A DNA stretch of 45,035 bases from the NCBI GenBank assembly GCA_020029475.1, contig JAIBJG010000004.1, positions 1 through 45,035 on the forward strand. The letters run 5' to 3'. Made by a program: the position numbers and the translations under genes. Below are positions 22,880 through 42,431 of the stretch, piece by piece (within the stretch, counting starts at the first letter, position 1; every line of letters begins with the position of its first letter). The notes under the pieces are model-generated. The model did not search any database and had not been told where the DNA came from. It worked only from the letters and a program-made list of their open reading frames with translations. This DNA comes from Methanobacteriota archaeon. GTDB taxonomy: Archaea > Thermoplasmatota > Thermoplasmata > RBG-16-68-12.

Positions 22880-22990
22880 CTCTCAAGGACTCCACTCCGC
22901 TCGGCTCCTCCCGTGCGCCCGCTCCTCTTTGGAGCAGGTCGTAGAGGGGACTCACCACATCATCGCGGAGGGCACCGGGCTGGACCGTAC
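22880..22990 (-). ncRNA. Candidate omega/re-RNA at the TnpB 3' end
   Basis: TnpB elements usually encode their guide RNA across the tnpB 3' end and right end. Here the corresponding stretch includes a perfect hairpin, GCTCC-AAAGA-GGAGC (minus strand, 22921-22935), followed by G/A-rich sequence. Position and hairpin fit; the boundaries and the guide segment cannot be fixed by eye. Confidence 0.3.
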
Positions 22991-24109
22991 AGCCCTTGCC
23001 AAGGCCTCATTCGAGGCCAAGGCGGATTTCAGGATGTTCAGGCCTGCGTTGATCTGGCGATCCATCTCCCAGTCGCACATCAGGCACACGAACACCTTGC
23101 CCACCCTATCTCGGCGCCGGGCGCCACACACTGGGCAGGTCTTCGACGTCCACGCTGGATTGACTTTGATGATGGGCACGCCCGCGAGGGCGGCCTTGTA
23201 CTCGATCTGACGATGAATCTCCCGTCGTGGCCAGGAGGAGAGGCGGCGATTCAGCCGCCGCGAACGCCCTCCCGCGCCGTGTAGGGTGAGATTTTCGAGG
23301 ACGATGGCGGCCCGACGATCCTTCGCCGAGGCTACGAGTGATTTCGTGACCCGATGCAGACGCTGGCGAACCCGATTCCGTTCCCGCCGCCCCTCGCGTT
23401 CAAGGAGTCGTCGCGCGACCCCCCGATCCTGAGCCTTCTTCCGGGCGAGACACCGCCGCCGTCGGAAGTGGGTCGCTTGCACCTGTCGGACGCGGCCTAG
23501 GGGGATGGTGATGAGGCGTGCCTCTCTCCCGGAAGCGATGAGACCGTCGAGGGAGTCCTCATTCGTGTCCAATGCGATCGCAGAAGCGGGCTCGCAGGCC
23601 TTCGGCGATTCCTTCCTTAGCACGAGGATGATCTTCCCTGGCACGACCGTCAGGGACCCAAGGCCCCACGAAGGGTCGCTCAAGAACGACCGGTGCCAGT
23701 CGGAGAGGGGCAGATGCAGTTGCACGGCCTCCGTGCCGCGGATCGGGATCCGGAGGCGGCCTGTTTCCCGATCGACCCAGTACGACTGGTTCTCCGCCTT
23801 CAGGAGGAGTCGACGGAGGTACGGGACGTTCGTTTCCTTCCCCCGCCGGGCTCGTCTCCGGTAGGCCTTCAGCACGGCCAACGCGATCTCGAACGCGCTC
23901 GGGATGTACTTCTTGTGCACATCGTGCTCGGCCGACAGCCCGGCGTACGCCGCCTTCGAGAGCCGGAAGCGGGAGCGAATGTCCCCGCGGAGAGCGATGC
24001 GGATGGACTTGTTTACGATGAGCCGGAACTCGCCCAGCAGACCGAGGAGTGGTGCGGGCATGCGCTCGACGGGGAACGCGAGGCTGCGGACGACATGCAT
24101 GGTGCCCAT
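22952..24109 (-). CDS. tnpB: TnpB, RNA-guided DNA endonuclease of IS200/IS605 family
   Basis: 385 residues, ATG start. The split RuvC residues are present: Asp181 (SAIALDTNEDS), Glu272 (AIVLENLTL) and Asp350 (WEMDRQINAGLNI). The zinc finger is C325-C328...C342-C345 (TCPVCGARR, FVCLMCDW). The N-terminal RNA-binding/WED-like region is complete, so the protein looks active. TnpB is the ancestor of Cas12 and cuts DNA next to a short TAM under guidance of an element-encoded RNA. No frameshift is seen; isolation from TnpA means mobility would need help in trans. Confidence 0.92.
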   Translation of the reverse strand: MGTMHVVRSLAFPVERMPAPLLGLLGEFRLIVNKSIRIALRGDIRSRFRLSKAAYAGLSAEHDVHKKYIPSAFEIALAVLKAYRRRARRGKETNVPYLRRLLLKAENQSYWVDRETGRLRIPIRGTEAVQLHLPLSDWHRSFLSDPSWGLGSLTVVPGKIILVLRKESPKACEPASAIALDTNEDSLDGLIASGREARLITIPLGRVRQVQATHFRRRRCLARKKAQDRGVARRLLEREGRRERNRVRQRLHRVTKSLVASAKDRRAAIVLENLTLHGAGGRSRRLNRRLSSWPRREIHRQIEYKAALAGVPIIKVNPAWTSKTCPVCGARRRDRVGKVFVCLMCDWEMDRQINAGLNILKSALASNEALARAVRSSPVPSAMMW

Positions 24110-25679: not shown

Positions 25680-26669
25680 ATGAGGGCCGAACGGCTCGCA
25701 CTACTCGGGGTACTGACGCTGGCGCTCGTCGCCATCGCCGCCTCTTCCGTCGCGCGCGCAACCGACCCGCCCGGGATGGACGGGGGGATGGACCCGCAGG
25801 TCGTCCTCCTCGCGGACATCCGGTCCGACTTCAACGTGATGGAGGCGGGCTCGACCCTCCCGATGCGGGTGATCGTCGTCGACCAGCACGGCGTCCCCGT
25901 ACCCGGCGCCCGGGTGGAGGTATCCGCCGCGGGCGCGACCCTGAGCCCCGCCGCCGGGGTCACGGACTCGGACGGGGTCTTCCGGTTCCGCCTCACGGCG
26001 GGGGCGACGTCCGTGACGCGGGCGACCTCCGTCGTCGCAACGGTCACGATGGCGGGAGCCGCGACGGGCTCGGACCGGTACGACCTCACGATCGCGAGGG
26101 CGGCGCCGACGGTGCAGATCCTCCCGCAGCGGGAGGCGGTCTCCGTGGGCCTCGGTGCGATCCTCGCCGCCGCGTTCCTGAGCACGGAGATCGGCCGGTA
26201 CGGCGCGTTCAAGGCGATCATCTTCCCGCTGTACTCCCGGCTGAAGAAGGAGGAGGTGCTCGACCACTTCGTCCGGGGCCAGATCTACGGGTACATCGTG
26301 TCCCACCCCGGGGAACACTACAACTCGATGCGGCAGGACCTGAAGGTCACGAACGGGACGCTGTCCCACCACCTCCGGACCCTGGAGATGATGGGGTTCA
26401 TCAAGTCGTACCGGGAGGGCGTGTTCAAGCGCTTCTACCCGATCGAGGTCTCCGTCCCGCAGGACCGGGGCGTGAAGCTGAGCGACCTCCAGATCCAGAT
26501 CCTGGAGATGGTCCGGAGCGGCTCCGGGCCGACCCAGGGGGACATCGCGGGGCGCCTCGACGTGACCCAGCAGACCGTCTCGTACAACATCCGCACCCTC
26601 AGCCGGGAGGGCGCGATCCGCATGGAGAAGGACGGCCGGAACACCCGGTACTATCCGCCTGCGGCGTGA
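25680..26669 (+). CDS. Membrane-anchored transcription regulator: signal peptide, Ig-like domain, TM, two winged helices
   Basis: 329 residues from the ATG at 25680. Residues 1-27 are a signal peptide (LALLGVLTLALVAIAASSVARA); about 38-140 form an Ig/Big_1-like extracellular domain (VVDQHGVPVPGARVEVSAAG...DSDGVFRFRLTA); about 153-185 are membrane-spanning; two winged helices follow inside the cell, ~195-255 (DLKVTNGTLSHHLRTLEMMGFIKSY) and ~265-327 (DIAGRLDVTQQTVSYNIRTLSREG). This is a one-protein surface sensor and DNA-binding regulator. The frame is open to a GTG at 25581, but TATA-like elements near 25605 and 25636 lie in that extension. It directly precedes the AAA+ unit in the same direction and is a candidate regulator of it. 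Confidence 0.85.
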   Translation: MRAERLALLGVLTLALVAIAASSVARATDPPGMDGGMDPQVVLLADIRSDFNVMEAGSTLPMRVIVVDQHGVPVPGARVEVSAAGATLSPAAGVTDSDGVFRFRLTAGATSVTRATSVVATVTMAGAATGSDRYDLTIARAAPTVQILPQREAVSVGLGAILAAAFLSTEIGRYGAFKAIIFPLYSRLKKEEVLDHFVRGQIYGYIVSHPGEHYNSMRQDLKVTNGTLSHHLRTLEMMGFIKSYREGVFKRFYPIEVSVPQDRGVKLSDLQIQILEMVRSGSGPTQGDIAGRLDVTQQTVSYNIRTLSREGAIRMEKDGRNTRYYPPAA

Positions 26670-26737
26670 CGTCCCGGAGTGCGGTCGGGTCACGCTTTAT
26701 GCCATATCGCGGCTATTGGCTCCGGGAGGAGTCGTCC

Positions 26738-27991
26738 GTGGGCACCCGGCTGCGCATATCCGCAGGGCTCGCCGTTGTCGTCGCGGCGGTGGTCCTGCTC
26801 TCCCTTCCGGGCGGGGTCGCGGCGACCCGCACGATCACGTACCCGTTCATCGCGGGGTCGTACGTGATCCCGATGGACGGGCAGCAGACGGACCTGCTTC
26901 ACGCGTTCGGTCTCGTGCACGCGATCCTCCGCGCGGGGGTGCCCGTGTATCGGGTCCTGAGCCCGCCCGCGGTCCTCCTGAAGGTGGACCCCCTCGCCCC
27001 GAGGGTCGCCTTCGATGGCGGGCCGTTCCTCGTGTGGGGCACGTACTCCGCGGAGTTCGCCGCCGCCGCGGCGGGGTTCCCCGGCGTCACGTACCTCCGG
27101 CTCGCGGAGCTCGAGGTCCTCGACCGCGTGCTCCCGATCAAGAAGCCGACGGGCGTCCTGATCCTGAGGGGCGGGTTCGACTGGGGGCACACCGGGGTCC
27201 TCCTCGACCAGCTCGGGATCCCGTACGACCTGATGACCCAGGCGGAGTTCGCCGCGGACCCCGGGGCCATCTTCCGCTACGCCCTCGTCGTCGACGACTG
27301 CAACGGGTGGAGCGGCCGGTACCCGGGGGACGCGATCGCGGACGCGTTCCGGATCTTCGTCGCGGGCGGCGGGCACGCGATCTTCACGGACATCGCGCTG
27401 AAGGACATGGAGGTCCTCTTCCCCGGCCACCTCTCCCTGTTCACGAGCCACCGAGGCACGTACAACGCGACGGTCCACACGTTCGGGGACGCGCCGTCCC
27501 AGTACTTCGGGCCAGATCAAATATCCGTGTACACGGAGATCGACGGGGTCGTCATGGGCCCCCCCGTCGCGGAGGGCGTGAACGTCCTCCTCGACCTTCC
27601 GAACTATCCGTACGGCTACCAGGTCGCGTACCGGATCCTCGCCGCGGACTTCGCGGTCGGGAACGGGACCGTGGAGGGGTTCGCGTACCACCCCTTCGAG
27701 CAGACGGGGGCGGGCCACACGTTCTCGTCCGTCCTGTACGGGAACACGTTCGTCAGCGCGGTCCCCTTCCTGCCGCCCGCCCCGCCCCCGGAGCCGATCG
27801 CCCTCGGCCTCCCGACCCCGCCCCCCGCGCCCCCGGTGCCGCCCCCGCCGCCTCCGCCCCCGAGCCTCCCCGTCGTGAACCTCGCGTACGCGGGGTACCT
27901 GTTCTCCGGGTTCACGGGCCTCGGGCTCGCGGACATCCTGCGGAACCGCCTGAAGCTCCGGACTCGGGAGAAGATTGCCGTGAGGACCTAG
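26738..27991 (+). CDS. Exported protein with proline-rich linker and C-terminal membrane anchor
   Basis: 417 residues from the GTG at 26738, which follows a GGGAGGAG ribosome binding site; the ORF extension to 26666 runs through a TATA-like CTTTAT near 26695. The signal peptide is RISAGLAVVVAAVVLLSLPGG. The main domain (~30-345) has alternating alpha/beta texture (TGVLILRGGFDWGHTGVLLDQ; ALVVDDCNG) somewhat like glutamine-amidotransferase folds, but no catalytic triad can be assigned. A long Pro-rich stretch (~350-385) leads to a hydrophobic segment and a basic tail. First gene of the four-gene AAA+ unit; family not recognised. Confidence 0.75.
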   Translation: MGTRLRISAGLAVVVAAVVLLSLPGGVAATRTITYPFIAGSYVIPMDGQQTDLLHAFGLVHAILRAGVPVYRVLSPPAVLLKVDPLAPRVAFDGGPFLVWGTYSAEFAAAAAGFPGVTYLRLAELEVLDRVLPIKKPTGVLILRGGFDWGHTGVLLDQLGIPYDLMTQAEFAADPGAIFRYALVVDDCNGWSGRYPGDAIADAFRIFVAGGGHAIFTDIALKDMEVLFPGHLSLFTSHRGTYNATVHTFGDAPSQYFGPDQISVYTEIDGVVMGPPVAEGVNVLLDLPNYPYGYQVAYRILAADFAVGNGTVEGFAYHPFEQTGAGHTFSSVLYGNTFVSAVPFLPPAPPPEPIALGLPTPPPAPPVPPPPPPPPSLPVVNLAYAGYLFSGFTGLGLADILRNRLKLRTREKIAVRT

Positions 27992-27992
27992 A

Positions 27993-28877
27993 ATGCGACC
28001 CCGGTTCGTCCTCGCCGCGCTTGTCCTCCTCCTCTCCGTCGCGGGGGCCTCGATCGCCCCGCCATCGAGGGCGGCGTGGCCGTCCCCCGTGTTCGAGGAC
28101 AATCTCGCGGTGGAGTGGAGCCCGCTCCGGATCATGGACCAGGACCGGGTCACGCTCGTGATCCGCACGATCCCCGCGAACACGTTCATCAAGGGCGCGA
28201 CCGTGTACGTCTCGATCACGGACCCCGACAACGTCACGCTGGGCCCGTTCCCGAACCCGATGGTCCTCGGGAACCCGCCCTCGCAGGCGACGTTCGGCGT
28301 GCGGGCGTACCCGAACGGGACGACCGTGAGCTTCTACTTCGTCGCCTGGGACTTCGAGAACGATGTCGTGACGAGCCAGGCCCACTCATACCGCGTGGAG
28401 GGGACGCCCGCGTTCGGATGGCGGCACTCCGGGTTCGAGGAGAACGTCGAGGTGACGTGGTTCCCACCGCTCCCGCAGCCCCACGACGAGGTCACCGTCT
28501 CCATTCGCAGCCGGGAGCCGGCAGTCCGGATCGGCGGGGCGAACCTCCTGATCCGGTACATCTACCAGTCCGACCCGCCGAAGGCGGGCGGGTTCGTGAT
28601 GCAGTACGTGAACACGACCCACCTCGCCGCCACGATCCCGGGGTTCCCGCCCGCCACCCAGGTCGTGTTCTGGATCGTCGCGTGGGACAAGGACGTGAAC
28701 ACGATCTCGTCCCCGTACTACGGGTACAACCTCTCCGTGGACAAGTACACGAAGCACGAGAACCTGCCGTTCCCTCCCGTCGAGACGTACGTCGGGATGG
28801 GGATCGGCCTCGGGGTCCTCGTGCCCGTCGCCGTGTACTTCGTGGACCTGCGCCGGAAACGGAGGTCCTCGGGATGA
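27993..28877 (+). CDS. Exported, C-terminally anchored protein with two Ig-like repeats
   Basis: 294 residues; ATG two bases after the previous stop. The signal peptide is FVLAALVLLLSVAGASIAPP. Two similar beta-rich repeats follow: FEDNLAVEWSPL...ANTFIKGATVYVSITDP and FEENVEVTWFPPL...AVRIGGANLLIRYIY, each ending with a VVFWIVAWD or VSFYFVAWD strand. One TM helix (GMGIGLGVLVPVAVYFV) and a basic stop-transfer tail end the protein. The stop overlaps the ATG of the AAA+ gene. It likely forms an external complex with the preceding protein; the specific role is unknown. Confidence 0.78.
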   Translation: MRPRFVLAALVLLLSVAGASIAPPSRAAWPSPVFEDNLAVEWSPLRIMDQDRVTLVIRTIPANTFIKGATVYVSITDPDNVTLGPFPNPMVLGNPPSQATFGVRAYPNGTTVSFYFVAWDFENDVVTSQAHSYRVEGTPAFGWRHSGFEENVEVTWFPPLPQPHDEVTVSIRSREPAVRIGGANLLIRYIYQSDPPKAGGFVMQYVNTTHLAATIPGFPPATQVVFWIVAWDKDVNTISSPYYGYNLSVDKYTKHENLPFPPVETYVGMGIGLGVLVPVAVYFVDLRRKRRSSG

Positions 28878-31579
28878 CCGCACTCGACACCGCGGTCCGC
28901 CCGGGCCGCCGGCGCCGCATCGCGGGGACGATCGTGGATCGTGTGCGGGCCTTGAAGCTCCCGGACCTCCAGGCCCTGTGGGTGAGGGAGCGGGCCCGCC
29001 CCGTCCTCGTGAAGGGCGCCGCGTTCTTCGGGCTCGCCTCGACGGGGTTCGCGTGGATCCCGTTCTACCCGTGGTGGGCGCTCCTGTTCCTCGCGTTCGT
29101 CGTCGGGGCCCTCGCCGTCCGGTTCCCGCTCCTCTCCCTGATCGCCCTCGGGGTCCTCGTGTCCGCCTCCGCGGCGGCGCAGATGGCGGAGTTCGGGCTC
29201 TTCTTCCTCGGCTTCACCCTCGCGGTCTCCCTCGTCTCCCTATTCGACTGGCGGTTCGGGTACCTCGTGTTCGGTTCCGTGTTCCTCTCCCTCCTCGGCG
29301 CGCCGTTCCTGCCGCCGCTGCTCGCCGCGGTCCTGTTCTCCCGGTTCCTCGCGGTCGCCTCCATGGCGGCGTCCGCGACGTTCCTCTCGTTCCTCGTCAC
29401 GTGCGGGAACCTGAACGTGGCGGGGTTCTTCGTCGGCCCGCCCCACGTCACGAGCTTCATGGTCATCGGGACCGCCGCGAAGCCGGACTGGACCCCGGGG
29501 GACCTCGGCGGGGCCCTCTTGAGGATCGGGCTCGCGAACCCGGACGTGATGTCCACGCTCCTCTCGACGAACTACGGGGCGTCCCTCGTCCCCTTCCTCG
29601 AGGTCGTCCTCTGGTGCGGGATCGTGTTCCTCGTCGCGGAGCTCGCCCGCCGGAAGGACTCCCTGGAGAACTGGCTGATGGCCGCGTTCGTCGCGACCGC
29701 CGCCCTCGCGGTGGGGTACGTGCTCTCGAGCCTCGCCCTCGGGGTGCCGATCCCCCTCGAGTCCGCGCCCCTCCTCGTGGGGGCCTTCGGCCTGATCGCG
29801 GGGACGATCGCGGCGGGGTACCTCGGGAAGGACGCGTTCCGGGAGTACTTCATGGGCCAGACCGCGACGACGGTGGGCCGGCGGCTCGCGGACCTCCCGG
29901 AGGCCCGGTCGACGAAGTTCTCCCTCGTCGGCGGGCTCGCGGACGTGAAGGCGGACCTGAAGGAGTCCATCGTCGTCCCGCTGAAGAAGCCGGAGGTCGC
30001 GGCCCGGTACGGGATCGCCCCGCCCCGCGGGATCCTCCTCTTCGGCCCGCCGGGGTGCGGGAAGACCTTGCTGATGTCCGCCCTCGCGGGGGAGCTGAAT
30101 ATCGAGATGTTCACGGTGAAGTGCTCGGACGTGATGTCGAAGTGGTACGGGGAGAGCGAGCAGCGGATCGAGCAGCTGTTCCGGACCGCGAAGGAGCGCC
30201 GCCCCGCAATCATCTTCTTCGACGACATCGACGCGATCGCGAAGTCCCGGGACCTGTACGCGGGGGACGACGTCACCCCGAGGCTGCTGGGGATGATCCT
30301 CTCCGAGATCGACGGCCTCGACAAGTCCCCCGGGCTGATCATGGTCGGGACGACGAACAAGCCCGAGCTCCTCGACTCCGCGATCCTCCGGCCGGGGCGC
30401 TTCGACAAGATCATCTACGTGCCGCCGCCGTCCCGTGCGGAGCGGGTGGAGATCCTCAGGGTCCACCTCGCGGGCCGGCCCGTCTCCGACGCCATCGACC
30501 TCGAGGGAATCGCGGAGCGCACGGAGCGGTTCTCCGGCGCGGACCTCGCGAACCTCGTGAAGGAGGCCGCGGTCGTCGCGATGCGCAGGTCCCTGTCCTC
30601 GCAGCGGGAGGAGTCGATCACGCCGAGGGAGTTCGAGGACGTGCTCCCGAAGATGAAGCCGAGCATCACCCTCGCGCAGGCGGAGGAATACGAGCGGCTG
30701 CGCCTGATGTACGAGCGGAAGATGCACCGGATCGAGCGGGAGGAGGAGGGGGTCGGATGGGCCGACGTCCGGGGCCTCGAGGAGGTGAAGGCGTCCCTGC
30801 GGGCGTACATGGACCTCGTGTTCACGAAGCGGGGGGCGATGGCGGACTTCCGCGTGAAGGCGTCCAAGGGGATCCTCCTGTTCGGTCCCCCGGGATGCGG
30901 GAAGACGTATCTGATGCGGGCCGCAGCGAACGAGCTCGGGATCCCGATCCAGACGATCGAGGGGCCGTCCCTCCTCTCCACGGGCGGGGACGGAGGGGCC
31001 GCGATCAAGGAGATCTTCTACCTGGCCCGCGAGAACGCGCCCTCCGTCGTGCTCTTCGACGACATCGACCTCGTCGCGTCCGCGCAGGACCGGAGCCCCG
31101 AGGCGCGGAACCTCCTCTCCCTGTTCCTCGCGCAGCTAGACTCCGTCGGGGAGTCCGAGCGGGTCCTCGTCGTCGCGACGACGAACCGGCCCCACGTCCT
31201 CGAGGCGTCCCTCCTCCGGCCGGGGCGGTTCGACAAGATGTTCTACGTCCCGCCCCCGGACGCGGGGGCCCGCCTCGCCCTCGCGGAGTCCGCCCTGAAG
31301 GGGGTGCCTGCCGCGGGGGTGGGCCGGGACCTCCTCGTCCGGCTCTGTCGGGAGGCGGAGGGGTTCTCGAGCGCGGACGTGATCTCGGCCGTGGAGGAGG
31401 CGAAGCTGATCGCGATCCGGGAGGGGACGCGGGAGGTCCGCCCCGTCCACCTCGAGGCGGGGTTCGCCCGGCTCCGGCCCTCCGTGACCGTGGAGTCCCT
31501 CGGGTGGTCCCGGGAATTCATCCGGGCCCACAACATCCGGCTGTCGGCGGAGCGCCCGAAGGAGGAGGGCCCGACATGA
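28874..31579 (+). CDS. Polytopic membrane protein with two C-terminal AAA+ domains (Cdc48-like, noncanonical Walker B)
   Basis: 901 residues. About residues 45-330 contain roughly eight or nine TM helices. Two classical AAA+ domains follow. D1: Walker A GPPGCGKT (391-398), pore loop KWYGES (about 423), Walker B IIFFDDID (Asp450-Asp451), sensor GTTNKP and LRPGRFDK. D2: Walker A GPPGCGKT (671-678), Walker B VVLFDDID (729-730), ATTNRP and LRPGRFDK; its pore loop region (STGGDGG) lacks an aromatic. The usual Walker B Glu is Asp in both rings. No protease domain is present, so it is probably an unfoldase or remodeller acting on membrane or exported substrates, unlike FtsH. Coupled by ATGA overlaps to genes on both sides. 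Confidence 0.88.
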   Translation: MTALDTAVRPGRRRRIAGTIVDRVRALKLPDLQALWVRERARPVLVKGAAFFGLASTGFAWIPFYPWWALLFLAFVVGALAVRFPLLSLIALGVLVSASAAAQMAEFGLFFLGFTLAVSLVSLFDWRFGYLVFGSVFLSLLGAPFLPPLLAAVLFSRFLAVASMAASATFLSFLVTCGNLNVAGFFVGPPHVTSFMVIGTAAKPDWTPGDLGGALLRIGLANPDVMSTLLSTNYGASLVPFLEVVLWCGIVFLVAELARRKDSLENWLMAAFVATAALAVGYVLSSLALGVPIPLESAPLLVGAFGLIAGTIAAGYLGKDAFREYFMGQTATTVGRRLADLPEARSTKFSLVGGLADVKADLKESIVVPLKKPEVAARYGIAPPRGILLFGPPGCGKTLLMSALAGELNIEMFTVKCSDVMSKWYGESEQRIEQLFRTAKERRPAIIFFDDIDAIAKSRDLYAGDDVTPRLLGMILSEIDGLDKSPGLIMVGTTNKPELLDSAILRPGRFDKIIYVPPPSRAERVEILRVHLAGRPVSDAIDLEGIAERTERFSGADLANLVKEAAVVAMRRSLSSQREESITPREFEDVLPKMKPSITLAQAEEYERLRLMYERKMHRIEREEEGVGWADVRGLEEVKASLRAYMDLVFTKRGAMADFRVKASKGILLFGPPGCGKTYLMRAAANELGIPIQTIEGPSLLSTGGDGGAAIKEIFYLARENAPSVVLFDDIDLVASAQDRSPEARNLLSLFLAQLDSVGESERVLVVATTNRPHVLEASLLRPGRFDKMFYVPPPDAGARLALAESALKGVPAAGVGRDLLVRLCREAEGFSSADVISAVEEAKLIAIREGTREVRPVHLEAGFARLRPSVTVESLGWSREFIRAHNIRLSAERPKEEGPT

Positions 31580-31872
31580 ACCTCTTCGAGGCCGCCCTGC
31601 TCGCGGTCGTGTCCGTGATCGCGGTCGTCGCGGTGATCGCGCTCCGGTTCCCCCGGGGGCGCGCGGAGTGGCCCCTCGACGCCCGTCAGTCCGCGTGGCT
31701 CCTGGTGAGCGGGCTCACCGCGGTAATCGTGTTCGTCCTCCTGTACGTCGCGACGCGGGACGTCCGCTGGCCGGATGCGGTTACCGTGACGTTCGGGGCG
31801 GTGTCCCTACTCCTTGCGCTCCTCGCCGGGGTCGCGCTGTTCCTGCCGCAGGGCCTTCGCGCGCGACCGTGA
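31576..31872 (+). CDS. Small three-TM membrane protein
   Basis: 98 residues; the ATG overlaps the AAA+ stop. Three hydrophobic helices (AALLAVVSVIAVVAVIAL, LLVSGLTAVIVFVLLYVA, FGAVSLLLALLAGVALFL) fill the protein. Tight coupling suggests a subunit or regulator of the AAA+ ATPase. The last 66 bp overlap the 3' end of the convergent beta-helix gene. Family not recognised. Confidence 0.72.
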   Translation: MNLFEAALLAVVSVIAVVAVIALRFPRGRAEWPLDARQSAWLLVSGLTAVIVFVLLYVATRDVRWPDAVTVTFGAVSLLLALLAGVALFLPQGLRARP

Positions 31873-33807
31873 CCGCCACAGGACCGCGAGGAGGCCCACG
31901 GCGAGGATCACGAGGGAGGCCGCCCAGACCGGCGTGAGGTCCACCCGCCGCGGTGCGTGCTCCACGTCGAAGGCGAAGAGGTGCGTCGTGGACAGGCGGT
32001 TCCCCGTGAGGTCCGTCGCGGTGTCCCGCACCGTGACGAAGCACGTCTCCCCGTACGCCGCGTCGAGGATCGCGAAGCTCACGGAGCGACCGTCCGCGCT
32101 CCATTCGAAGGCGCCGATCGTGTGGCCGACGACCCCGATCGCGGCCTCCGTGGCGGTGCGGTTCATCGGCTCCGAGAAGACGATCGTGACCCGCGCCCCG
32201 AGCCGGACCCCGACGGAGTCCCTCGCGGGGATTGTGTCCTCGACGCTGGGCCTCGTCGTGTCCGTCTGGAGAAAGGTCTCCGTGTGGGTCCTGGACATGT
32301 CGACGACCCGCGGGGTCCCGCGGAACTCGTATCCGGGGCGGCCGATGAAGACCTCCACCTGGGAGGGGGTGAGGAGGGGCGGCCCCTGGGTGGCCTGGAC
32401 CCGGCTGAGGACGCCGTGGGTCGCGGGGATCCACAGGCTGGACCCGAGGGCGTCGGTCGTCCGGCGGGCGATCTCCGCGCCGTCCTGGGTCACCCGCACG
32501 TTGACGTCGGGGATCGGAGCCCCCGAGTCCGTCGTCGCCCGCACGTGGAGGAAGTTCTTGATCGTCACGGAGGACCGCTCGTCCGTGATGTTCACGGCGT
32601 CGATCCGGAACAGCGTGTTCAGGGAGACGACCTGGGATACGCTCGTCAGGAGGAACTGGCTGCTCGAATTCGTGAGCGTGGAGTTCACGACGGTCGCGGT
32701 GCTGTTCGCGGCGAAGACGAGTCCGTGGTTGTTCCGGAGGCGGGCCCCGGAGACGGTCACGTTCACGCAGTCGTACAGCGTGAGGAGGCCCTGCTCCGTT
32801 GCGTTCCCCGAGAAGCCCCGGAGGCGCCCGGAGTCAAGGTCCGCGGCGTCGATCGTGATGTCCCGGGCCCGGTAGCGGTACAGGGCCTCCATGGGGATCC
32901 CGTTCACGAGGTTCCCGCTGGACAGGGGGAGGGTCCCCCGGGAGTTGTACGGGATTTCGACGCCGACCGCGTTGTTCCGGACGATGTTGTCCCGCAAGGT
33001 GACCGCGGAATCGGACAGGAGGACTCCCGTGCCGCCGTAGTTCGGGATGCCGTTCCCCTCGATCACGTTGCCCTCGACGATCGGGGCGGAGCTCAGGACG
33101 AGGAGCCCGACCCATCCGTTCCGGATCGTGTTGTTCGAGATCCGGGGCTGGCCTCCGAGGTACACGTAGATTCCGAAGTAGTTGTCCGTGAGGTTGTTGT
33201 TTCGGATCACGGGGCTCGCGTCCTGGGTGATGATTCCCGTCCGCTCGTTGAACACCTGGGTCGCGATGTTGTTGTTCTCGATCACCGGCTCCGCGCCCGG
33301 CCCGAGGACCTGGATCGCGCGCAGCCCGCTCTCGAGGATCGAGTTGTTCGCGATCCGCGGGGACGACTGACGGATGTCCAGGGTCGTCGATCCCCAGGAG
33401 AACTCGGCCCACTCGACGACAGATCCGACGGACCGCTGGAACTGGATCGAGACCCAGTCGTTTCGATCCGGGAACGGGTCGTTCGACGTGAACACGATGT
33501 GGGAGTCGAATCGTCCGACCGCGAGGATCGTCCCGAGGACGACGATCGAATGGGAGGCGGGAGGGGCGGTGTCGAACCGGACCGTGACCCCGGGGTCCAC
33601 GGTCAGGGTCACCCCAACGGGGACGATCACGTCCCCCGTGACGATGTACGGGCTCCCGGGCACCGTCCACGTCGTGTTGCCGCTCAGGGCGCCGGAGACG
33701 AACGTCGGTCCTGCACCCGCCGTATGCACGAACGGCGTGGGGATCGAGAGGACCAGCACGAGGGCGAGGAGAAGGACCGCGAGGACAGGGTTCCCGCCGC
33801 GTCGCAC
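31807..33807 (-). CDS. Exported right-handed beta-helix (NosD/PbH1-like) surface protein with C-terminal anchor
   Basis: 666 residues from a GTG. Signal peptide: PVLAVLLLALVLVLSIPTP. About residues 45-400 hold repeated PbH1/NosD-type rungs (PRIANNSIL, PVIENNNIA, PVIRNNNLTDNYFGIYV, PRISNNTIRNGWVGLLV, PIVEGNVIEGNG). Then come a CarboxypepD_reg-like segment (~425-470) and a Big_5-like domain (SVGVRLGARVTIVFSEPMN). One TM helix (VWAASLVILAVGLLAVLW) and a basic tail end it. Such proteins bind or modify carbohydrate, or form surface coats. A TATATAT box about 23 nt upstream predicts a leaderless transcript. Confidence 0.9.
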   Translation of the reverse strand: MRRGGNPVLAVLLLALVLVLSIPTPFVHTAGAGPTFVSGALSGNTTWTVPGSPYIVTGDVIVPVGVTLTVDPGVTVRFDTAPPASHSIVVLGTILAVGRFDSHIVFTSNDPFPDRNDWVSIQFQRSVGSVVEWAEFSWGSTTLDIRQSSPRIANNSILESGLRAIQVLGPGAEPVIENNNIATQVFNERTGIITQDASPVIRNNNLTDNYFGIYVYLGGQPRISNNTIRNGWVGLLVLSSAPIVEGNVIEGNGIPNYGGTGVLLSDSAVTLRDNIVRNNAVGVEIPYNSRGTLPLSSGNLVNGIPMEALYRYRARDITIDAADLDSGRLRGFSGNATEQGLLTLYDCVNVTVSGARLRNNHGLVFAANSTATVVNSTLTNSSSQFLLTSVSQVVSLNTLFRIDAVNITDERSSVTIKNFLHVRATTDSGAPIPDVNVRVTQDGAEIARRTTDALGSSLWIPATHGVLSRVQATQGPPLLTPSQVEVFIGRPGYEFRGTPRVVDMSRTHTETFLQTDTTRPSVEDTIPARDSVGVRLGARVTIVFSEPMNRTATEAAIGVVGHTIGAFEWSADGRSVSFAILDAAYGETCFVTVRDTATDLTGNRLSTTHLFAFDVEHAPRRVDLTPVWAASLVILAVGLLAVLWRSRSRAKALRQEQRDPGEERKE

Positions 33808-33973: not shown

Positions 33974-34074
33974 ACGTCGCCTCGCATCACGGGTGTACTT
34001 GGGCGGACACGGGACGTGTGCGTCCAGGACGCGCCGCAGGCGTTTTTTCGAGGCGTGAGAGAGGAGGAAATCCG

Positions 34075-36975
34075 ATGAGGAAGCCAATCCGAGTGGCAAT
34101 TGTGATGGCGGCCGTAGGCCTCGTCGCGATCATGCTGGCAGCGCCGTTCTACGCGGCAACGGCCAGCGCGATCAACGAGACCCGCGCGGGAGAGGTCATC
34201 TACACCGTCGGCGGGCAGGACCAGATGAAGACGCGAAACTGGCTGCCCGCGATCGCGAACGACGTGTGGACGTCCGACGTCCTCGGCCGCGTTTACGACA
34301 CTGTGGGCCAGACGCACCCGGTGACGGACGAGTTGGTTCCGTACATCATCAAGGGTGTGGATGTAGACGGAAACTCGAACTTCGAGAGGACCGAGAAGGC
34401 CAAGTTCCTGAAGGGAGTGTGCCAGCCGGCGCCGTGCGATGCCGCCACGGACACGGCATGGCGGCGGACGGTGTGGGCGTACTACGACTTCAACGGCGTG
34501 TTCTTCCACGACGGCCGCCAGGCGACGATCGGGGACGTGATGTTCAACTACGTCATGCAGTCCCTGAACCCGCGGTTCAACACGGACATGCGGATCCTCT
34601 GGGACGACCCGAACGCCGCGACGTTCCCGGCAAGCCGCCACATCAACATCTTCGTGGCCTGGTGCGGCCCGGTGGGCGCGCAGTGGGAGGGCGCGAGTGG
34701 ACTTCCCGGCGACAACACCCTCCGGTGCGCGCTCCGGTTCCAGCTCCAGGATGACTTCGCCCTGTTCTACCGGTCCACGCTCGCAGGGCTCACCCTGTTC
34801 CCGCGCCACCTCTTCGAGGGGACCGGGGACCGCGCGGGCCGGCACCCCACGACGACGGCGTGCCCGGACCCGAACTGGGGACTCACAATCTACCCGGAGA
34901 CGGACTCGAACTTCGGCCAGGGCATCCCGACGGACTCGACGACATACCGGCCGTTCAACTACCCCTGCGCAGAGGCGTGGCAGATGGTGGACGCGGACGT
35001 CATCGGGACGGGACCGTTCAAGTTCGGCACCTGGTCCTTCGGTGCGTTCGCCCGGGTCGACAAGAACCCGAACTTCTTCTACGGGGTCAACCCGAGCAAC
35101 CCGTCGATCGTGTACGACTCGGCCTTGCCGTTGTACATGCACCAGCCGTTCATCGACGCGATCCTGTTCAAGATCTACCGGACGACGCAGCTCGGCGTGC
35201 TCGCGCTCCAGTCGGGGGAGATCGACTTCTACCACTGGAACGTCCCGCCGGAGTTCGTCCCGGACTTATTGAACGATCCGAACATCCGGGTATGGGCGAA
35301 CGCGGAGCCCGGGTTCTTCTACCTCGCGTACAACATGCGGCGCCAGCCGTTCGGGTACAGCCCGAGCTACCCGCCGACCCCGGCAACGGACCGCTCCAGC
35401 GACCTGGGCCTTCCGTTCCGCCAGGCGTTCGCGCACCTGATCGACAAGGCGACGATCGTGCGGACCCTGCTCCAGAACTACGGCGTGATCGCAGACGGAA
35501 CCGTGAGCCCGGCGAACACGTTCTGGTACAACGGGACGCTGCCGAAGTACGCGTACGACCCGGCCCAGGCCGCCCTGATCCTCGACAACGAGGGCTGGAT
35601 GGACACGGACGGCGACGGATGGCGGGAGTTCCCGAGACTCGGGGACAGCCAGTTCGAGATCCTCACCCCGCAGGCGGACTACGACCCGATCCGGGCCTCC
35701 GCGGGCGCGATGATCGCCTCCGCGGCGCGGTCCATCGGGGTGAACGTGATTTCGAAGCCGACGGCGTTCGGTGCGATCGTTGCGGCGATCAACGCGCACG
35801 ACTTCGATATGTTCATCCTCGGGTGGCGGATCAGCGGGACGGACCCCGACTACCTGTTCAGCTTCTTCCACAGCTCGAACGCGGCGGCTGGACAGAACTA
35901 CCAGGGGTTCTACGACTCGCGGTTCGACTCCGTGGTTTCGTCCAGCCGGAAGGAGCTCGATGAGAGCAAGCGCCAAGGCCTGATCAAGGAGGCCCAGGGC
36001 ATCCTCGCGCAGCGCCTCCCGTACGACGTCTTGTACTACCGGACGCAGATCGAGGCCGAGCGGCAGGACCGGTTCGTGAACTACTCCGTGTCCTCGGGCA
36101 CGATCTGGAACTACTGGTCGATTCAAAGCATCCGGCGACCCACGACGAGCTTCATCCGTGCGGTCGTCTCGGCCCCCTCCGCGATCGTGGAGGGAGGCCA
36201 GAGCCTCGTGTCGACCACGGTTCGGGATCAGGATGGCCTCGCGGTCTCGGGCGCCACCGTGATTTTCGCGGTGAACGCCGGGAGCGGGACGTTCACGGGC
36301 GGGAGTTGCAACACGAGCACGTGTTCGATTTCGGGCCAGACGACTTCCTCCGGAACGTTCTCGGCGTCGTACAACGCCCCGGCGACGGTCCCGAGCGGGA
36401 ACCCCGATGTCACGATCATGGTGACCGCGGTGTCCCCGGACCCGGATGTGCCCCAGGAGCAGCGGACGCGCATCGTGACGATCTACGCGACGGGCGTCCA
36501 GTTCCTGTCGCTTACGCCATTGCTGACCACGGGTGACCTCGTCACGGTGGGCGAGAGCCTCGTGTTCGGCGTGGACGTGAGGGACCAGGACGGGCTCCCG
36601 GCGGACACGGCTACGGTGAGCCTCACGGTGTCGCCGACGGATGCGACGGTGAGCCCGGTCTCCGGCTCGGCCTCGACGATGCGCTCGGGCATCGCGTTCC
36701 AGGCGCCCGCCGACATCGCGGCGAGCCCGGCGACGTTCCGCGTGACCGCGACGGCGAACATGGCAGGGCACTCCCCAGGCATATCGCAGATCGACTTCAC
36801 GGTCGTGAAGGTGACCTCGACGTTCACGTGCCCGGACGGCACCGTCGTGCCGGCGGGACAGCCGTGCCCAAGGGGCCCGAATGTCCCCGCGCTCGACGTA
36901 CTGCCGGTCCTCGCCGCGATCGGCGTGGCCGCGGTCGTCTACGGAATTGTCCGGAACCGCAAGAAGGGGGCATAA
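34075..36975 (+). CDS. ABC transporter substrate-binding protein (SBP family 5), with Ig-like repeats and C-terminal TM anchor
   Basis: 966 residues from the ATG at 34075, behind GAGGAGG. Signal peptide: AIVMAAVGLVAIMLAAPFYA. Residues ~35-690 are an SBP_bac_5 peptide-binding protein: WTSDVLGRVYDTV, GVFFHDGRQATIGDVMFNYV, FRQAFAHLIDKATIVRTLLQNYG, FFHSSNAAAGQNYQGFYDSRFD. After it, two Ig/Big_1-like modules (VRDQDGLAVSGATVIFAV and VRDQDGLPADTATVSLTV) span ~695-905. A final TM helix (VLPVLAAIGVAAVVYGIV) and basic tail anchor the protein from its C-terminus. Typical family members are 500-600 residues, so this is much enlarged. It captures oligopeptides or similar solutes for the permeases that follow. 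Confidence 0.93.
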   Translation: MRKPIRVAIVMAAVGLVAIMLAAPFYAATASAINETRAGEVIYTVGGQDQMKTRNWLPAIANDVWTSDVLGRVYDTVGQTHPVTDELVPYIIKGVDVDGNSNFERTEKAKFLKGVCQPAPCDAATDTAWRRTVWAYYDFNGVFFHDGRQATIGDVMFNYVMQSLNPRFNTDMRILWDDPNAATFPASRHINIFVAWCGPVGAQWEGASGLPGDNTLRCALRFQLQDDFALFYRSTLAGLTLFPRHLFEGTGDRAGRHPTTTACPDPNWGLTIYPETDSNFGQGIPTDSTTYRPFNYPCAEAWQMVDADVIGTGPFKFGTWSFGAFARVDKNPNFFYGVNPSNPSIVYDSALPLYMHQPFIDAILFKIYRTTQLGVLALQSGEIDFYHWNVPPEFVPDLLNDPNIRVWANAEPGFFYLAYNMRRQPFGYSPSYPPTPATDRSSDLGLPFRQAFAHLIDKATIVRTLLQNYGVIADGTVSPANTFWYNGTLPKYAYDPAQAALILDNEGWMDTDGDGWREFPRLGDSQFEILTPQADYDPIRASAGAMIASAARSIGVNVISKPTAFGAIVAAINAHDFDMFILGWRISGTDPDYLFSFFHSSNAAAGQNYQGFYDSRFDSVVSSSRKELDESKRQGLIKEAQGILAQRLPYDVLYYRTQIEAERQDRFVNYSVSSGTIWNYWSIQSIRRPTTSFIRAVVSAPSAIVEGGQSLVSTTVRDQDGLAVSGATVIFAVNAGSGTFTGGSCNTSTCSISGQTTSSGTFSASYNAPATVPSGNPDVTIMVTAVSPDPDVPQEQRTRIVTIYATGVQFLSLTPLLTTGDLVTVGESLVFGVDVRDQDGLPADTATVSLTVSPTDATVSPVSGSASTMRSGIAFQAPADIAASPATFRVTATANMAGHSPGISQIDFTVVKVTSTFTCPDGTVVPAGQPCPRGPNVPALDVLPVLAAIGVAAVVYGIVRNRKKGA

Positions 36976-36983
36976 GCCCCCTT
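36964..36983 (+). terminator. Hairpin spanning the SBP stop codon, followed by pyrimidines
   Basis: AAGGGGGC, loop ATAA, GCCCCCTT: a perfect 8-bp stem whose loop holds part of the TAA stop, followed by CCCCTTTCCTTTATT. It looks like a partial terminator that would let the binding protein be made in excess over the permeases. Confidence 0.5.
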
Positions 36984-36991
36984 CCCCTTTC

Positions 36992-36999
36992 CTTTATTA
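36992..36999 (+). promoter_or_regulatory. Internal TATA-like box before the permease genes
   Basis: CTTTATTA, just after the hairpin and about 52 nt before the ATG at 37052; could restart transcription of the membrane components. Confidence 0.35.
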
Positions 37000-37051
37000 C
37001 GCTTGACGTGCGGTTAAGGGGACAGCGGTTCGGGTCCCGAGGCGGGGAGCG

Positions 37052-38695
37052 ATGCGGCTCAGGACGTACCTAATCCGGCGAGCGATTCACACAGTGATCA
37101 CGTTACTCGTCGTGCTCGTCCTGCTGTTCCTGATTTTCCGTTTGATGCCGGGGGATCCCTCGCGCTTCTTCATCGCGCCCGGGCAGCCCCCGCAGGTACG
37201 CGAGGAGATCTGCGTCTCCTTCGGTCTGTGCAAATGGGTGAGCGCCCCCGGGCACGGGTATGAAGGCCAGATTCAAGCGGGCGCCTACGGCCCGTACAAC
37301 ACGACGGTGTTCGTGAACGGCACCGGGGGGAATCGGGCGACGTACAACTTCGTGTACAACCGCCTTCCCACGGAGCTGGAGCAGAGGAGCTTCCCCGTCG
37401 TAATCAAGGACGTGACCCTGAGCAGTACGAGCAGTACGGCGCCGCGACCCACCCTTCCGGACGCCCGCCCCGGGGACTCCGTTACGATTCGCGCGCAGGT
37501 CGTAGGGTCCGCGATTGTCCCCACGCTCCAGGTCCTCCTGCCGGACGCGAACTGGACCGCCCCGACAACGAACATCGACGCGAACTCGTACGTCCACTGG
37601 GTCGTTGATGCAGCCACGGAGGGCAGGTATTGGGGGAACGTGTACGCGGCGAACTCCAACGGGAGCGTAAACCTCACCCTCGGGTTCGTTGCGTCGAACC
37701 CGCCGAGCGGCCTCGACCTCGTCGAGGACAAGTTCTACGGGCGCGTGCCGACGTTCCCGCCGGACAAGGCGATCATCAGCGTGAACGTGACCTCCCAGGG
37801 AGCCCCGATTTTCAATGTGACTGCGAACGTGGAGTCCCAGGGGGGACGGTTCGTCCAGCCGGACATCCACCTCCGCCACCCGCAGGTGAGCGAGCGGAGG
37901 TCCCTCGCGGAACAGTTCGTGATTTACTTCCTGAGCATGCTCTCCGGGAACTTCGGGACCTCGTTCTACACACGTCGTCCCGTGATCGACGAGATCTCGG
38001 TGCGGATCGGCCCGACCTTACTCCTCTTCGGGTCCTCCGTGATCATCTCGTACATCTTGGGGATCTTCCTCGGGGCGATCCTCGCATGGCGGCGCGGGAC
38101 GAAGATGGAGCTCTCCGCGATCGTGGTCTCCCTGTTCTTCTACTCGATGCCCGTCTTCTGGTTCGGGCTCGTGCTCCTCTGGTTCTTCGCCTTCGAGCGG
38201 CGGTGGTTCCCTCTCGGGGGAATCGGAGGCTTCGACCCGAACACGGGCGCAGCCCTTACGGGGATCTCCCTCGTCGGAGACATCCTGTGGCACATGGCTC
38301 TGCCCCTCGGGAATCTCGTGATCCTCGGGCTCGCGGGCCACGTCCTCCTGATGCGGAACAGTATGCTCGAGGTGATGGGGGAGGACTACATCCTCACGGC
38401 GAAGGCGAAGGGGCTCAGCGAGCGGCGGGTGATGTACCGCCACGCCGCCCGGAACGCGCTCCTCCCGGTCGTGACGGCGCTGGCGATCTCGATCGGCGGG
38501 GTGATCAGCGGCGGTGTCCTCACGGAGACGATCTTCTCGTGGCCGGGAATGGGGTACTTCCTCGTGACGTCGACCCTCCAGCAGGACTATCCGTCCGTGC
38601 AGGCTGCGTTTTTCATCCTCGCGGTGATCACGATCCTGGCGAACACGGTCGCCGACGTCCTGTACGCGTACCTGGACCCCCGCGTGAGGCTGTGA
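37052..38695 (+). CDS. Oligopeptide ABC transporter permease, OppB/DppB type, with large external insert
   Basis: 547 residues against about 310-340 for the family. TM1 (~13-32, HTVITLLVVLVLLFLIF) and the LMPGDP motif are normal. About residues 55-275 are an extra, beta-rich, Asn-rich domain on the outside (TVFVNGTGG, GDSVTIRAQVVG). The family sequence resumes at AEQFVIYFLSMLSGNFGTSFYTRRPV and contains the cytoplasmic EAA loop (VMGEDYILTAKAKGLSERRVMYRHAARNALLPV). Forms the channel with the next gene product. The external domain probably docks the binding protein or shields the pore entry. Confidence 0.93.
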   Translation: MRLRTYLIRRAIHTVITLLVVLVLLFLIFRLMPGDPSRFFIAPGQPPQVREEICVSFGLCKWVSAPGHGYEGQIQAGAYGPYNTTVFVNGTGGNRATYNFVYNRLPTELEQRSFPVVIKDVTLSSTSSTAPRPTLPDARPGDSVTIRAQVVGSAIVPTLQVLLPDANWTAPTTNIDANSYVHWVVDAATEGRYWGNVYAANSNGSVNLTLGFVASNPPSGLDLVEDKFYGRVPTFPPDKAIISVNVTSQGAPIFNVTANVESQGGRFVQPDIHLRHPQVSERRSLAEQFVIYFLSMLSGNFGTSFYTRRPVIDEISVRIGPTLLLFGSSVIISYILGIFLGAILAWRRGTKMELSAIVVSLFFYSMPVFWFGLVLLWFFAFERRWFPLGGIGGFDPNTGAALTGISLVGDILWHMALPLGNLVILGLAGHVLLMRNSMLEVMGEDYILTAKAKGLSERRVMYRHAARNALLPVVTALAISIGGVISGGVLTETIFSWPGMGYFLVTSTLQQDYPSVQAAFFILAVITILANTVADVLYAYLDPRVRL

Positions 38696-38696
38696 G

Positions 38697-41138
38697 ATGG
38701 TATCGAGCCGGAGGATCCAGGACAAGTACAACAGCTGGAAGAAACTCTTCCTCCAGAACTGGACCCTCTTCAAGGCGAGCCGGATCGGGGTCGTCGGCCT
38801 CGCGATCATGATCGCGTTCCTGCTCATCGCCCTCCTGGTCCCGCTGATGGGCCTGCGGGACCCCTTGTACTGGCTCGCCCCGGAGTCCGACACGATCTCG
38901 GTGCAGCGATGGTGGTCGCAGGAGGTGCGGCCGGGGTCCACGTTTTATGGCCTGAACGGGAGCGTCGACCACGCGATCGCGTTCCGCCTCTCGCCGAGCG
39001 CGTTCGAACCGCGAGCGGATCGAATCTACGTGCCGGAGGATCGACACCTGTTTGCACTTCGGACCTCGGATGCCGACTGGGCGTGGAAGGACTCGGGCGG
39101 GGACGCGGCATGCACATTCACGCCTGATCGCACGGGCGTCTATCTTGTCGCAGACGGCGTGATCTCCGTCGACCCTGTGATTGTCAACTACGGATCCCAC
39201 AGGGATCCCGTGACCGCGATGCCTCTGCTAATGTTCGGGACACGGGCCGGCACCGTCTACGTGGTGACAGACGACATTTCGAACGCGAGCTGTCCGACGC
39301 CCATGATGATCAATCTAGGGTCGCCGATCACCGGGCTGGCGGCCCTCACCCACGACCAGAGCGCGGGGCCCCTCATCGATCGGGACGGGTTCGTGGTCGG
39401 CACGGAGGATGGCCGGCTCTTCGGGTTCACCGTGAACGGTACGAGCGGCCCGTTCTACAGGGAACTGTGGAACACGCTGTTGGATCCCGGGAACCCCTCC
39501 CCCATCCACATTGCGGGGGCGGTCATACGCACAACCAGCGGCTCCCCGGTCTCTTCGCCGGCGTACTATCAATCGATCGCGAACTCAACGGACCGAGCCG
39601 GGGAGGCAGTCTACGTTGGGGACAGCAAGGGGGTCCTGTACTCGGTCTGGACATCCAACGGGACGCTCCGTTGGCCCGCCCGCCAACTGATTTTCGGCGG
39701 CACGACATGGACGGGGGCCCCGGTCGTGTCCCCCGCCGCGGAGCTCACCGCGACCCTCCCCACGCTCGTGTACGCGACCGTCCAGGACCGGGAATCGAGC
39801 GCGAACGTCACGAAGGTGTACGTCCTGAAGGCCGAGACGGGCCAACCGTTGCAGAGCTGGGACTCAACCGGCGACGGGGGCCTCCCGATCGCATTCCGGG
39901 GCGTCGAGAGGGGGATCCCGAACACCCCCGCGGTCGTCGGGACGAGCATCTTCATCACGACGAGCACGGGGTGGCTGTATAACGTCATCCGAGACCCGAT
40001 TTTCGGGGCGGACGATGTCCTCAAGGTGCCCCCCGGGAGCGTCCAGTGGGCGTACCAGGACCTCAGCTTCCAGCAGGACGCGACCCATCACACGTCGTTC
40101 ACGGCCCCGCCGTACATCTTCGAGAACCTGAAGCTCGTCGTCGCGGTCGCGAGCTACAACAACGGCACCGCGAGTCCCGCAGACGACATCGGCATCATGT
40201 ACGTGTTCGGGGAGGCGACGGGCTCCCTCACGTGGAAGAAGACGTTCCCGTACGGGATCAACTCGATGCCGGTCGCCTGGAGGGACCCGACCCACGTCCG
40301 GGAGGCGGTCTGGTTCGGCACGTACCGCGGCGACGTGTACTCGTACAGCACCTCCGGTCAGTACCTCGCGCCCCTCCCCCCGAGCTGGGCGCACACGTGC
40401 GTTCCCTCTTCGGACCCCCGATATGACCCGAATTGCATCCCGGGTCGGTATGCGAGCGGCAACTACTACGTCCTCGGTACGGACGCCCGCGGGCGGGACA
40501 TCTTCAGCCAGCTGATCTGGGGGAGCCGGGTCGCCCTCCTCGTCGGGTTCGCATCGGCCTTCTTCACGATTTCGATCGGCGTGATCATCGGGCTCGTCGC
40601 GGGATACCTCGGGGGCCGCGTCGAGTCGATCCTGATGCGATTCACGGACGTGATCCTCGTGATTCCCGGCCTCCCGCTCGTCATCATCCTCGCCGCCGTC
40701 CTCGGGGCGGGGATCGGGAACATCATCCTCGTGATCGCGATCGTCGGCTGGCCCGGCGTCGCCCGGGTGATCCGGGCGGAGGTCCTCTCCCTGAAGGAGA
40801 GGCCGTTCATCGACTCCGCGCGGGTCACGGGCGCGAGCAACGTGCGGATCATGTTCCGGCACGTCGCGCCGAACGTCGCACCCCTCGCGTTCCTGTATAT
40901 GACGTTCGCGGTGAGCGGGGCGATCCTCACGGAGGCGGCCCTGAGCTTCATCGGCCTCGGGGACGTCAGCACGATCAGCTGGGGGATCATGCTCCAGGAC
41001 GTCTCCCAGTCGAAGGCGCTGGAGGCGTGGTGGTGGCTGGGGCCGCCCGGGATCGCGATCACCCTGATATCCCTCGCCTTCTTCCTCGTGGGGCGGGCGT
41101 TCGATGAGATCGTGAACCCGAGGCTGAGGAAGAGATGA
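38697..41138 (+). CDS. Oligopeptide ABC transporter permease, OppC/DppC type, with inserted extracellular beta-propeller
   Basis: 813 residues against about 290-380 for the family. The N-terminal OppC segment and TM1 (~31-51) are followed at ~60-585 by an external domain of 7-8 blade-like repeats of PQQ/WD40 style: RIYVPEDRHLFALRT, FVVGTEDGRLFGFTV, VYVGDSKGVLYSVWTSNGTL, IFITTSTGWLYNV, MYVFGEATGSLTWKKTF, VWFGTYRGDVYSYSTSG. The permease resumes at YVLGTDARGRDIFSQLIWGSR and has the EAA loop (SLKERPFIDSARVTGASNVRIMFRHVAPNV). No frameshift: propeller and permease are one frame. Its stop overlaps the ATPase start (ATGA). Confidence 0.93.
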   Translation: MVSSRRIQDKYNSWKKLFLQNWTLFKASRIGVVGLAIMIAFLLIALLVPLMGLRDPLYWLAPESDTISVQRWWSQEVRPGSTFYGLNGSVDHAIAFRLSPSAFEPRADRIYVPEDRHLFALRTSDADWAWKDSGGDAACTFTPDRTGVYLVADGVISVDPVIVNYGSHRDPVTAMPLLMFGTRAGTVYVVTDDISNASCPTPMMINLGSPITGLAALTHDQSAGPLIDRDGFVVGTEDGRLFGFTVNGTSGPFYRELWNTLLDPGNPSPIHIAGAVIRTTSGSPVSSPAYYQSIANSTDRAGEAVYVGDSKGVLYSVWTSNGTLRWPARQLIFGGTTWTGAPVVSPAAELTATLPTLVYATVQDRESSANVTKVYVLKAETGQPLQSWDSTGDGGLPIAFRGVERGIPNTPAVVGTSIFITTSTGWLYNVIRDPIFGADDVLKVPPGSVQWAYQDLSFQQDATHHTSFTAPPYIFENLKLVVAVASYNNGTASPADDIGIMYVFGEATGSLTWKKTFPYGINSMPVAWRDPTHVREAVWFGTYRGDVYSYSTSGQYLAPLPPSWAHTCVPSSDPRYDPNCIPGRYASGNYYVLGTDARGRDIFSQLIWGSRVALLVGFASAFFTISIGVIIGLVAGYLGGRVESILMRFTDVILVIPGLPLVIILAAVLGAGIGNIILVIAIVGWPGVARVIRAEVLSLKERPFIDSARVTGASNVRIMFRHVAPNVAPLAFLYMTFAVSGAILTEAALSFIGLGDVSTISWGIMLQDVSQSKALEAWWWLGPPGIAITLISLAFFLVGRAFDEIVNPRLRKR

Positions 41139-42430: not shown

Positions 42431-42431
42431 G

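Follow-up and report, generated by a model that had tools for sequence, protein, structure and literature searches.

How cytosolic ATP can act on proteins outside the cell is the question posed by four adjacent genes that span positions 26738-31872 of the window, by which the whole 45,035-nucleotide stretch of DNA analysed here is meant. This window corresponds to an entire contig from an archaeal genome bin of 1.94 Mb and high GC content. The genes encode two exported proteins (P1 and P2), an ATPase that combines a transmembrane (TM) domain with two AAA domains (D1 and D2), and a small membrane protein (P4). To our knowledge, no archaeal membrane-embedded AAA motor dedicated to the cell surface has been described. 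The comparisons of genes and neighbourhoods presented below support the reading of these four genes as a conserved unit that faces the cell surface.

Gene content of the locus

As listed in Table 1, the four reading frames follow one another with spacings of +1, -4 and -4 bp, that is, a 1-bp gap and then two 4-bp overlaps. The tight packing noted in the preliminary description was confirmed together with its spacing and domain content, and the gene order is the same in dozens of genomes, far more than chance would give. Both exported proteins were also found to be anchored at the C-terminus, as had been claimed; the TM segment of P2 is clear, and the anchor of P1 is weakly hydrophobic (mean KD 1.24 over 19 aa). 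An alternative start of P1, the in-frame ATG at 26699, would give a product of 430 aa and is plausible because a similar N-terminus is present in a congener. P1, P2 and P4 have no Pfam or NCBIfam family above cut-off, and profile searches found no Pfam or PDB relative of the TM domain of the ATPase. Comparison of the P1, P2 and TM-domain profiles with the PDB gave nothing significant.

Table 1. Positions of the four genes and of the ATPase domains in the window
Feature	Position	Strand	Description
P1	26738-27991	+	417 aa; exported, signal peptide
P2	27993-28877	+	294 aa; exported tandem Ig-like protein
TM-AAA-AAA ATPase	28874-31579	+	901 aa; Cdc48-clade, without protease
~8-TM domain of ATPase	28988-29896	+	Residues 39-341; signature PFYPxW ... 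YQ ... W-x2-G ... VGxR
AAA D1	29903-30706	+	Walker A FGPPGCGKT; pore loop SKWYGESE; two SRH Arg-finger residues
AAA D2	30755-31579	+	Pore loop LLSTGGDGG, without aromatic
P4	31576-31872	+	98 aa; 3-TM, conserved FPRG..W motif

Directly upstream of P1 lies a membrane one-component regulator (25680-26669, + strand) with an extracellular Big_1 Ig-like domain, one TM segment, and HTH_HVO_0163-type and MarR-like winged helices. The regulator is kept in this position in the genus (loci L046 and L047) and was not seen beside the unit in Methanomassiliicoccales-like genomes; it could be a sensor of the same surface state, or a client. At the other end, a convergent gene (31807-33807, - strand) overlaps P4 by 66 bp and encodes a NosD/beta-helix and Big_5 surface protein with a C-terminal TM segment. 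A NosD and Big_5 protein also adjoins the unit at locus L077, and a NosD protein is found near it at L078. The window further contains a TnpB-like protein (22952-24109, - strand; Cas12f1-like TNB domain, E 2.6e-19) and a downstream operon-like run (34018-43625, + strand) with an SBP_bac_5 solute-binding protein, two multi-TM proteins and two probable ATPases, which by eye would be a peptide ABC importer.

Membrane domain and AAA rings of the ATPase

Two PF00004 domains with lids were detected in the ATPase, and a peptidase domain is absent according to Pfam, which agrees with the earlier statement that no protease domain is present. Hydropathy gives the TM domain 7 segments in the window and 8 in the majority of its homologues; because P2-fused homologues exist, the number has to be even. 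The AlphaFold model of this domain, computed from five sequences, had a pLDDT of 40 and was not used for fold search.

The Walker A motif and the pore loop of D1 are kept in 35/35 full-length sequences, the pore loop S[KR]WYGESE being invariant, and the arginines of the second region of homology are retained. Walker B of D1 reads DE or DD among these sequences. The window copy carries DD instead of DE, so that the rate of hydrolysis by its D1 is uncertain. An aromatic pore loop is found in the D2 of none of the 35 sequences, the Walker A residues of D2 are lost in several lineages, and the whole domain is absent in most members from other classes. The two AAA rings of the preliminary description are both present in the window, but across homologues they are not equal, one being conserved and the other degenerate or missing. 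From this pattern of conservation across homologues, D1 is taken to be the conserved motor that does the work, and D2 an accessory that is degenerating or can be dispensed with.

For both AAA domains, the closest PDB matches are of the Cdc48 type (VAT, VCP, AFG2). All D1 domains form one clade in the tree and all D2 domains another, with some very long D2 branches, and both clades are separate from the Cdc48-like and PAN-like domains of the window's own genome, these paralogues being represented by homology-guided ORFs. Cdc48-type rings are best known as soluble segregases. The present family suggests that such rings have been independently built into a membrane.

Distribution and layouts of the unit

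With the TM domain as query against whole genomes, the TM-AAA gene was found in 60 of the 400 genomes of the class, counting each genome as one without phylogenetic correction, as in all genome counts given here; the phylum has it in further classes as well. For about fifty genomes the neighbourhood was read, with gene boundaries in the relatives taken from a simple codon-usage caller. P2 is next to or fused with the ATPase in all 47 evaluable loci (33 adjacent, 14 fused), and a small TM gene lies downstream of the ATPase in 42 of 46. The P1 profile matched 15 of the 400 class genomes, every one of which has the TM-AAA gene (chance probability about 8e-14, ignoring relatedness). P4 was detected at E<1e-5 in 20 of 230 genomes, all with the ATPase, and a 21st match is marginal. 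Strong matches to P2 are likewise confined to ATPase-bearing genomes, and the weak ones elsewhere are probably ordinary Ig-like domains. The check proposed with the preliminary description, whether the same partners co-occur with the TM-AAA protein, thus had a positive outcome (P2 in 47/47 loci, P1 hits in 15/15, P4 hits in 20/21). The opposite outcome, an architecture scattered without these partners, was looked for and not seen within Thermoplasmatota, on the strength of the exclusivity of P1 and P4 and the confinement of strong P2 matches.

The unit occurs in layouts that differ in gene content. Layout i, P1-P2-AAA-P4, is that of the window's genus and of several other families, two of which are represented by named Methanomassiliicoccales bins. 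Layout ii, found in the large family f15, f26 and f12, combines a pair of large P2-like proteins with an ATPase whose N-terminus is longer and a small protein with 1-4 TM segments. In layout iii, the ATPase carries P2 as an N-terminal fusion, an exported VWA protein comes before it and P4 lies downstream; most of these loci with enough flank also have an exported protein of 1300-2200 residues upstream. Those giant upstream proteins of fused lineages that were tested consist of Big_7/Big_13 Ig repeats. Layouts ii and iii are both present in two f12 genomes. No giant surface protein is adjacent to the unit in the window, and the nearest candidate is the convergent NosD/Big_5 gene.

The system is missing from all 19 sister-genus genomes examined, and it is therefore not essential in that genus. 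By short exact peptides, the closest named relatives are the soil 'Euryarchaeota archaeon' bins EA_19 and EA_22, followed by Methanomassiliicoccales bins, which makes Thermoplasmata the probable class. Among named genomes beyond Thermoplasmatota, the same insensitive approach gave one bacterial match of 22 residues, which looks spurious. A signal peptidase beside P1 in Methanomassiliicoccales-like genomes was also considered as a candidate; its VVVESGSM box is plausible by eye and its Pfam support is weak, and it was not used.

Exchangeable heads and conserved tails

P1 contains an alpha/beta domain of ThuA/class-I-GATase-like fold at residues ~140-228, a resemblance that rests on the part for which the AlphaFold model is reliable, the remainder being poorly modelled. 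An invariant poly-Pro stretch (residues ~365-375) is followed by a C-terminus (residues ~383-417) that comprises a weak TM segment and a basic cytoplasmic tail. In the fused lineages, the slot of P1 is filled by an exported VWA protein with a MIDAS-like DxSxS in most members; secreted VWA is not found in the window, where P1 fills the slot. Profile comparison between P1 and the VWA proteins was alignable in the C-terminal 35 columns only, which comprise the anchor and tail (98.9%, E 2e-17), and the VWA-protein anchors aligned with that of P1 score 0.8-1.6. The P1 slot is exchangeable at the level of sequence: the anchor and tail are shared, whereas the head is either ThuA/GATase-like or VWA. 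The assignment of P1 as a DUF4350/GldG-like protein was unsupported (hhalign probability 0.9%, no DUF4350 match). A P1-type domain (residues 717-1018) was also observed in an exported protein of 1529 aa encoded far from the ATPase (L104:5114-9703, + strand, genome G050).

P2 consists of an Ig-like pair (residues 26-246), a C-terminal TM segment from about residue 266 and a short basic tail. A conserved R-[IV]-T-[LV] tail closes most copies of the two P2-like proteins of layout ii. When the KRITL-type tail was searched as a DNA pattern in 10 genomes, 9 matches were obtained, all in loci of the unit and none elsewhere, and the reversed control gave 0. Because the tail is always in these loci, it is considered a subunit feature; a role of KRITL as a sorting tag of general use, recognised by the machine, was discarded, as in the 10 genomes it is carried only by the system's own subunits. 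The cytoplasmic side is thus the conserved one and the outside is variable, as would be expected were the tail read by the ring or by the TM domain. In the two-P2 layout, the small TM proteins (L080, L053-L055, L060, L082) end in VG-GA(G). These ends resemble the QKVxVGA tail of the VWA proteins and may be that tail motif, transferred to a different subunit.

Proposed machine and alternative explanations

The partnership of the four products is well supported, and a pulling mechanism is what we infer for it. We give an even chance to a single membrane complex, in which the motor grips the tails of dedicated surface subunits and remodels or extracts surface complexes. That P2 and the ATPase are fused in 14 loci fixes the topology and argues for physical association; the ring would lie on the cytosolic face, with P2 and the head outside. 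To judge from conservation, D1 may engage the cytoplasmic tails of P1 or of the VWA protein, or those of the two P2-like proteins that end in KRITL, and ATP hydrolysis would pull on the tail or anchor, whereupon the surface complex would be remodelled, released or extracted. P2 and the head would bind a client outside the cell, for which the large Ig-repeat surface proteins whose genes adjoin the unit in many relatives are the probable candidates. D2 would act as a scaffold or regulator, and an extracted protein, if any, would pass to a separate proteasome. Docking or assembly is an alternative role for the tails.

Mere co-transcription, with P1, P2 and P4 acting apart from the ATPase, would agree with the presence of a P1-type domain inside the unrelated 1529-aa exported protein of L104; however, the 14 fused loci, the exclusive co-occurrence of P1 and P4, and the constant order across classes make this explanation very improbable. 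The unit might also be a general membrane-protein quality-control dislocase, a functional FtsH/Msp1 stand-in that draws membrane proteins into the cytosol once they are damaged and feeds them to the proteasome, with P1, P2 and P4 as general adaptors. A membrane-embedded AAA protein with an invariant threading pore loop would suit such a role, the genome has its own Cdc48- and PAN-like proteins, and both FtsH and Msp1 are precedents for pulling membrane proteins (PMC13039401, PMC7018516). Nevertheless, a general dislocase is considered improbable, as the system is patchy, missing from 19/19 sister-genus genomes and from most of the class, unlike housekeeping quality control, and its partners are dedicated and bear elaborate extracellular domains (VWA, Ig, ThuA-like).

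Alternatively, the unit might be a machine of the MoxR/VWA type for surface assembly or secretion, corresponding in Thermoplasmatota to the predicted arCOG01314 system; its ring would transmit a conformational change via the tail of the VWA or ThuA-like protein and mature or export the giant Ig-repeat protein, with no extraction or unfolding. That system has parts of the same kind: an extracellular head, flavodoxin/Rossmann-like or VWA, on one anchor, together with Ig-like membrane proteins, an AAA ATPase and giant Ig-repeat proteins (PMC5898192). Most fused loci in which the flank is long enough have the giant surface gene immediately upstream. The motor, however, belongs to the Cdc48 clade with a threading-type pore loop and not to MoxR, P1 is not detectably DUF4350, and in this class DUF4350 is found independently of the present system, with which it can coexist; a machine of this type is therefore judged possible but unlikely. 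The unit may represent an undescribed class of envelope machine, proposed here tentatively and with less than even confidence, in which a membrane-integral Cdc48-clade motor works on a shared anchor and tail with swapped heads and couples cytosolic ATP to large surface proteins. Ready predictions of interactions follow from a unit that spans the phylum and has a naturally occurring fusion, two exclusive partners and a head that can be exchanged.

Comparison with known systems

The claim that the ATPase is distinct from FtsH, Lon and soluble Cdc48 is supported by the lack of a protease and by scores far below the curated cut-offs. It reaches 375 bits against the FtsH_fam model (cut-off 600) and 432 bits against the CDC48 model (cut-off 803), and it is also far below the curated cut-off for PAN. 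No description of the unit was found in the open-access literature, in line with the earlier failure to match it to a named system. Like FtsH, the ATPase is a membrane-embedded AAA protein with a cytosolic ring and, in the fused relatives, an extracytoplasmic domain near the N-terminus; it differs in having no M41 protease but a second AAA domain or nothing in that place, ~8 TM segments against 2, and an Ig-like ectodomain. With Cdc48/VCP/VAT it shares AAA domains of the Cdc48 clade, as given by the best PDB matches of D1 and D2, whereas the N-domain is lacking and a TM domain is present instead, D1 is the motor and D2 degenerate, and the clades are separate. Msp1/ATAD1 is likewise a membrane-anchored AAA protein, but with a single N-terminal TM segment and a single AAA domain, compared with ~8 TM segments and two AAA domains in the window, and Msp1 is not known to have dedicated surface partners. 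Its anchored AAA ring extracts membrane proteins with small cytosolic parts (PMC7018516).

Pairs of a MoxR ring and a VWA protein (NorQ/NorD, RavA/ViaA, CbbQ/CbbO) also combine an AAA ring with a VWA protein. In NorQD, the ring acts on its membrane target through the VWA protein, which reaches the pore (PMC9976466). The VWA protein of these pairs contacts the ring directly from the same side, whereas that of the present unit is exported and could reach the ring only via its anchor and tail. The closest likeness in composition is to the predicted archaeal secretion system of arCOG01314 (DUF4350), MoxR AAA+, vWA and Ig-like proteins (Makarova, Galperin and Koonin 2015, PMC5898192, section 3.2, Table 2). 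Both bring together, in one neighbourhood, an exported head with a single C-terminal anchor, an AAA+ ATPase, S-layer-like Ig proteins and membrane proteins of the Ig-like type; an extracellular VWA domain joins them in that system and, here, in the fused lineages. With this related prediction in print, the general idea of archaeal surface machines built from AAA, VWA and Ig parts has been put forward before. arCOG01314 is listed as absent from Thermoplasmata (PMC5898192); Pfam DUF4350 was found here in some Thermoplasmata and not in the genome of the window. The motor of that system is of the MoxR/GvpN family, whereas the present one is a membrane-integral tandem AAA protein of the Cdc48 clade (PF00004) that brings its own ~8-TM domain and has an Ig pair either fused or next to it. 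The unit is thus not FtsH, soluble Cdc48 or the MoxR/vWA/DUF4350 system, although it is like the last in composition. As these genes are found together across an entire archaeal phylum, two of them as a fusion in some lineages, they appear to form a genuine machine, so far undescribed, that acts on cell-surface proteins from within.
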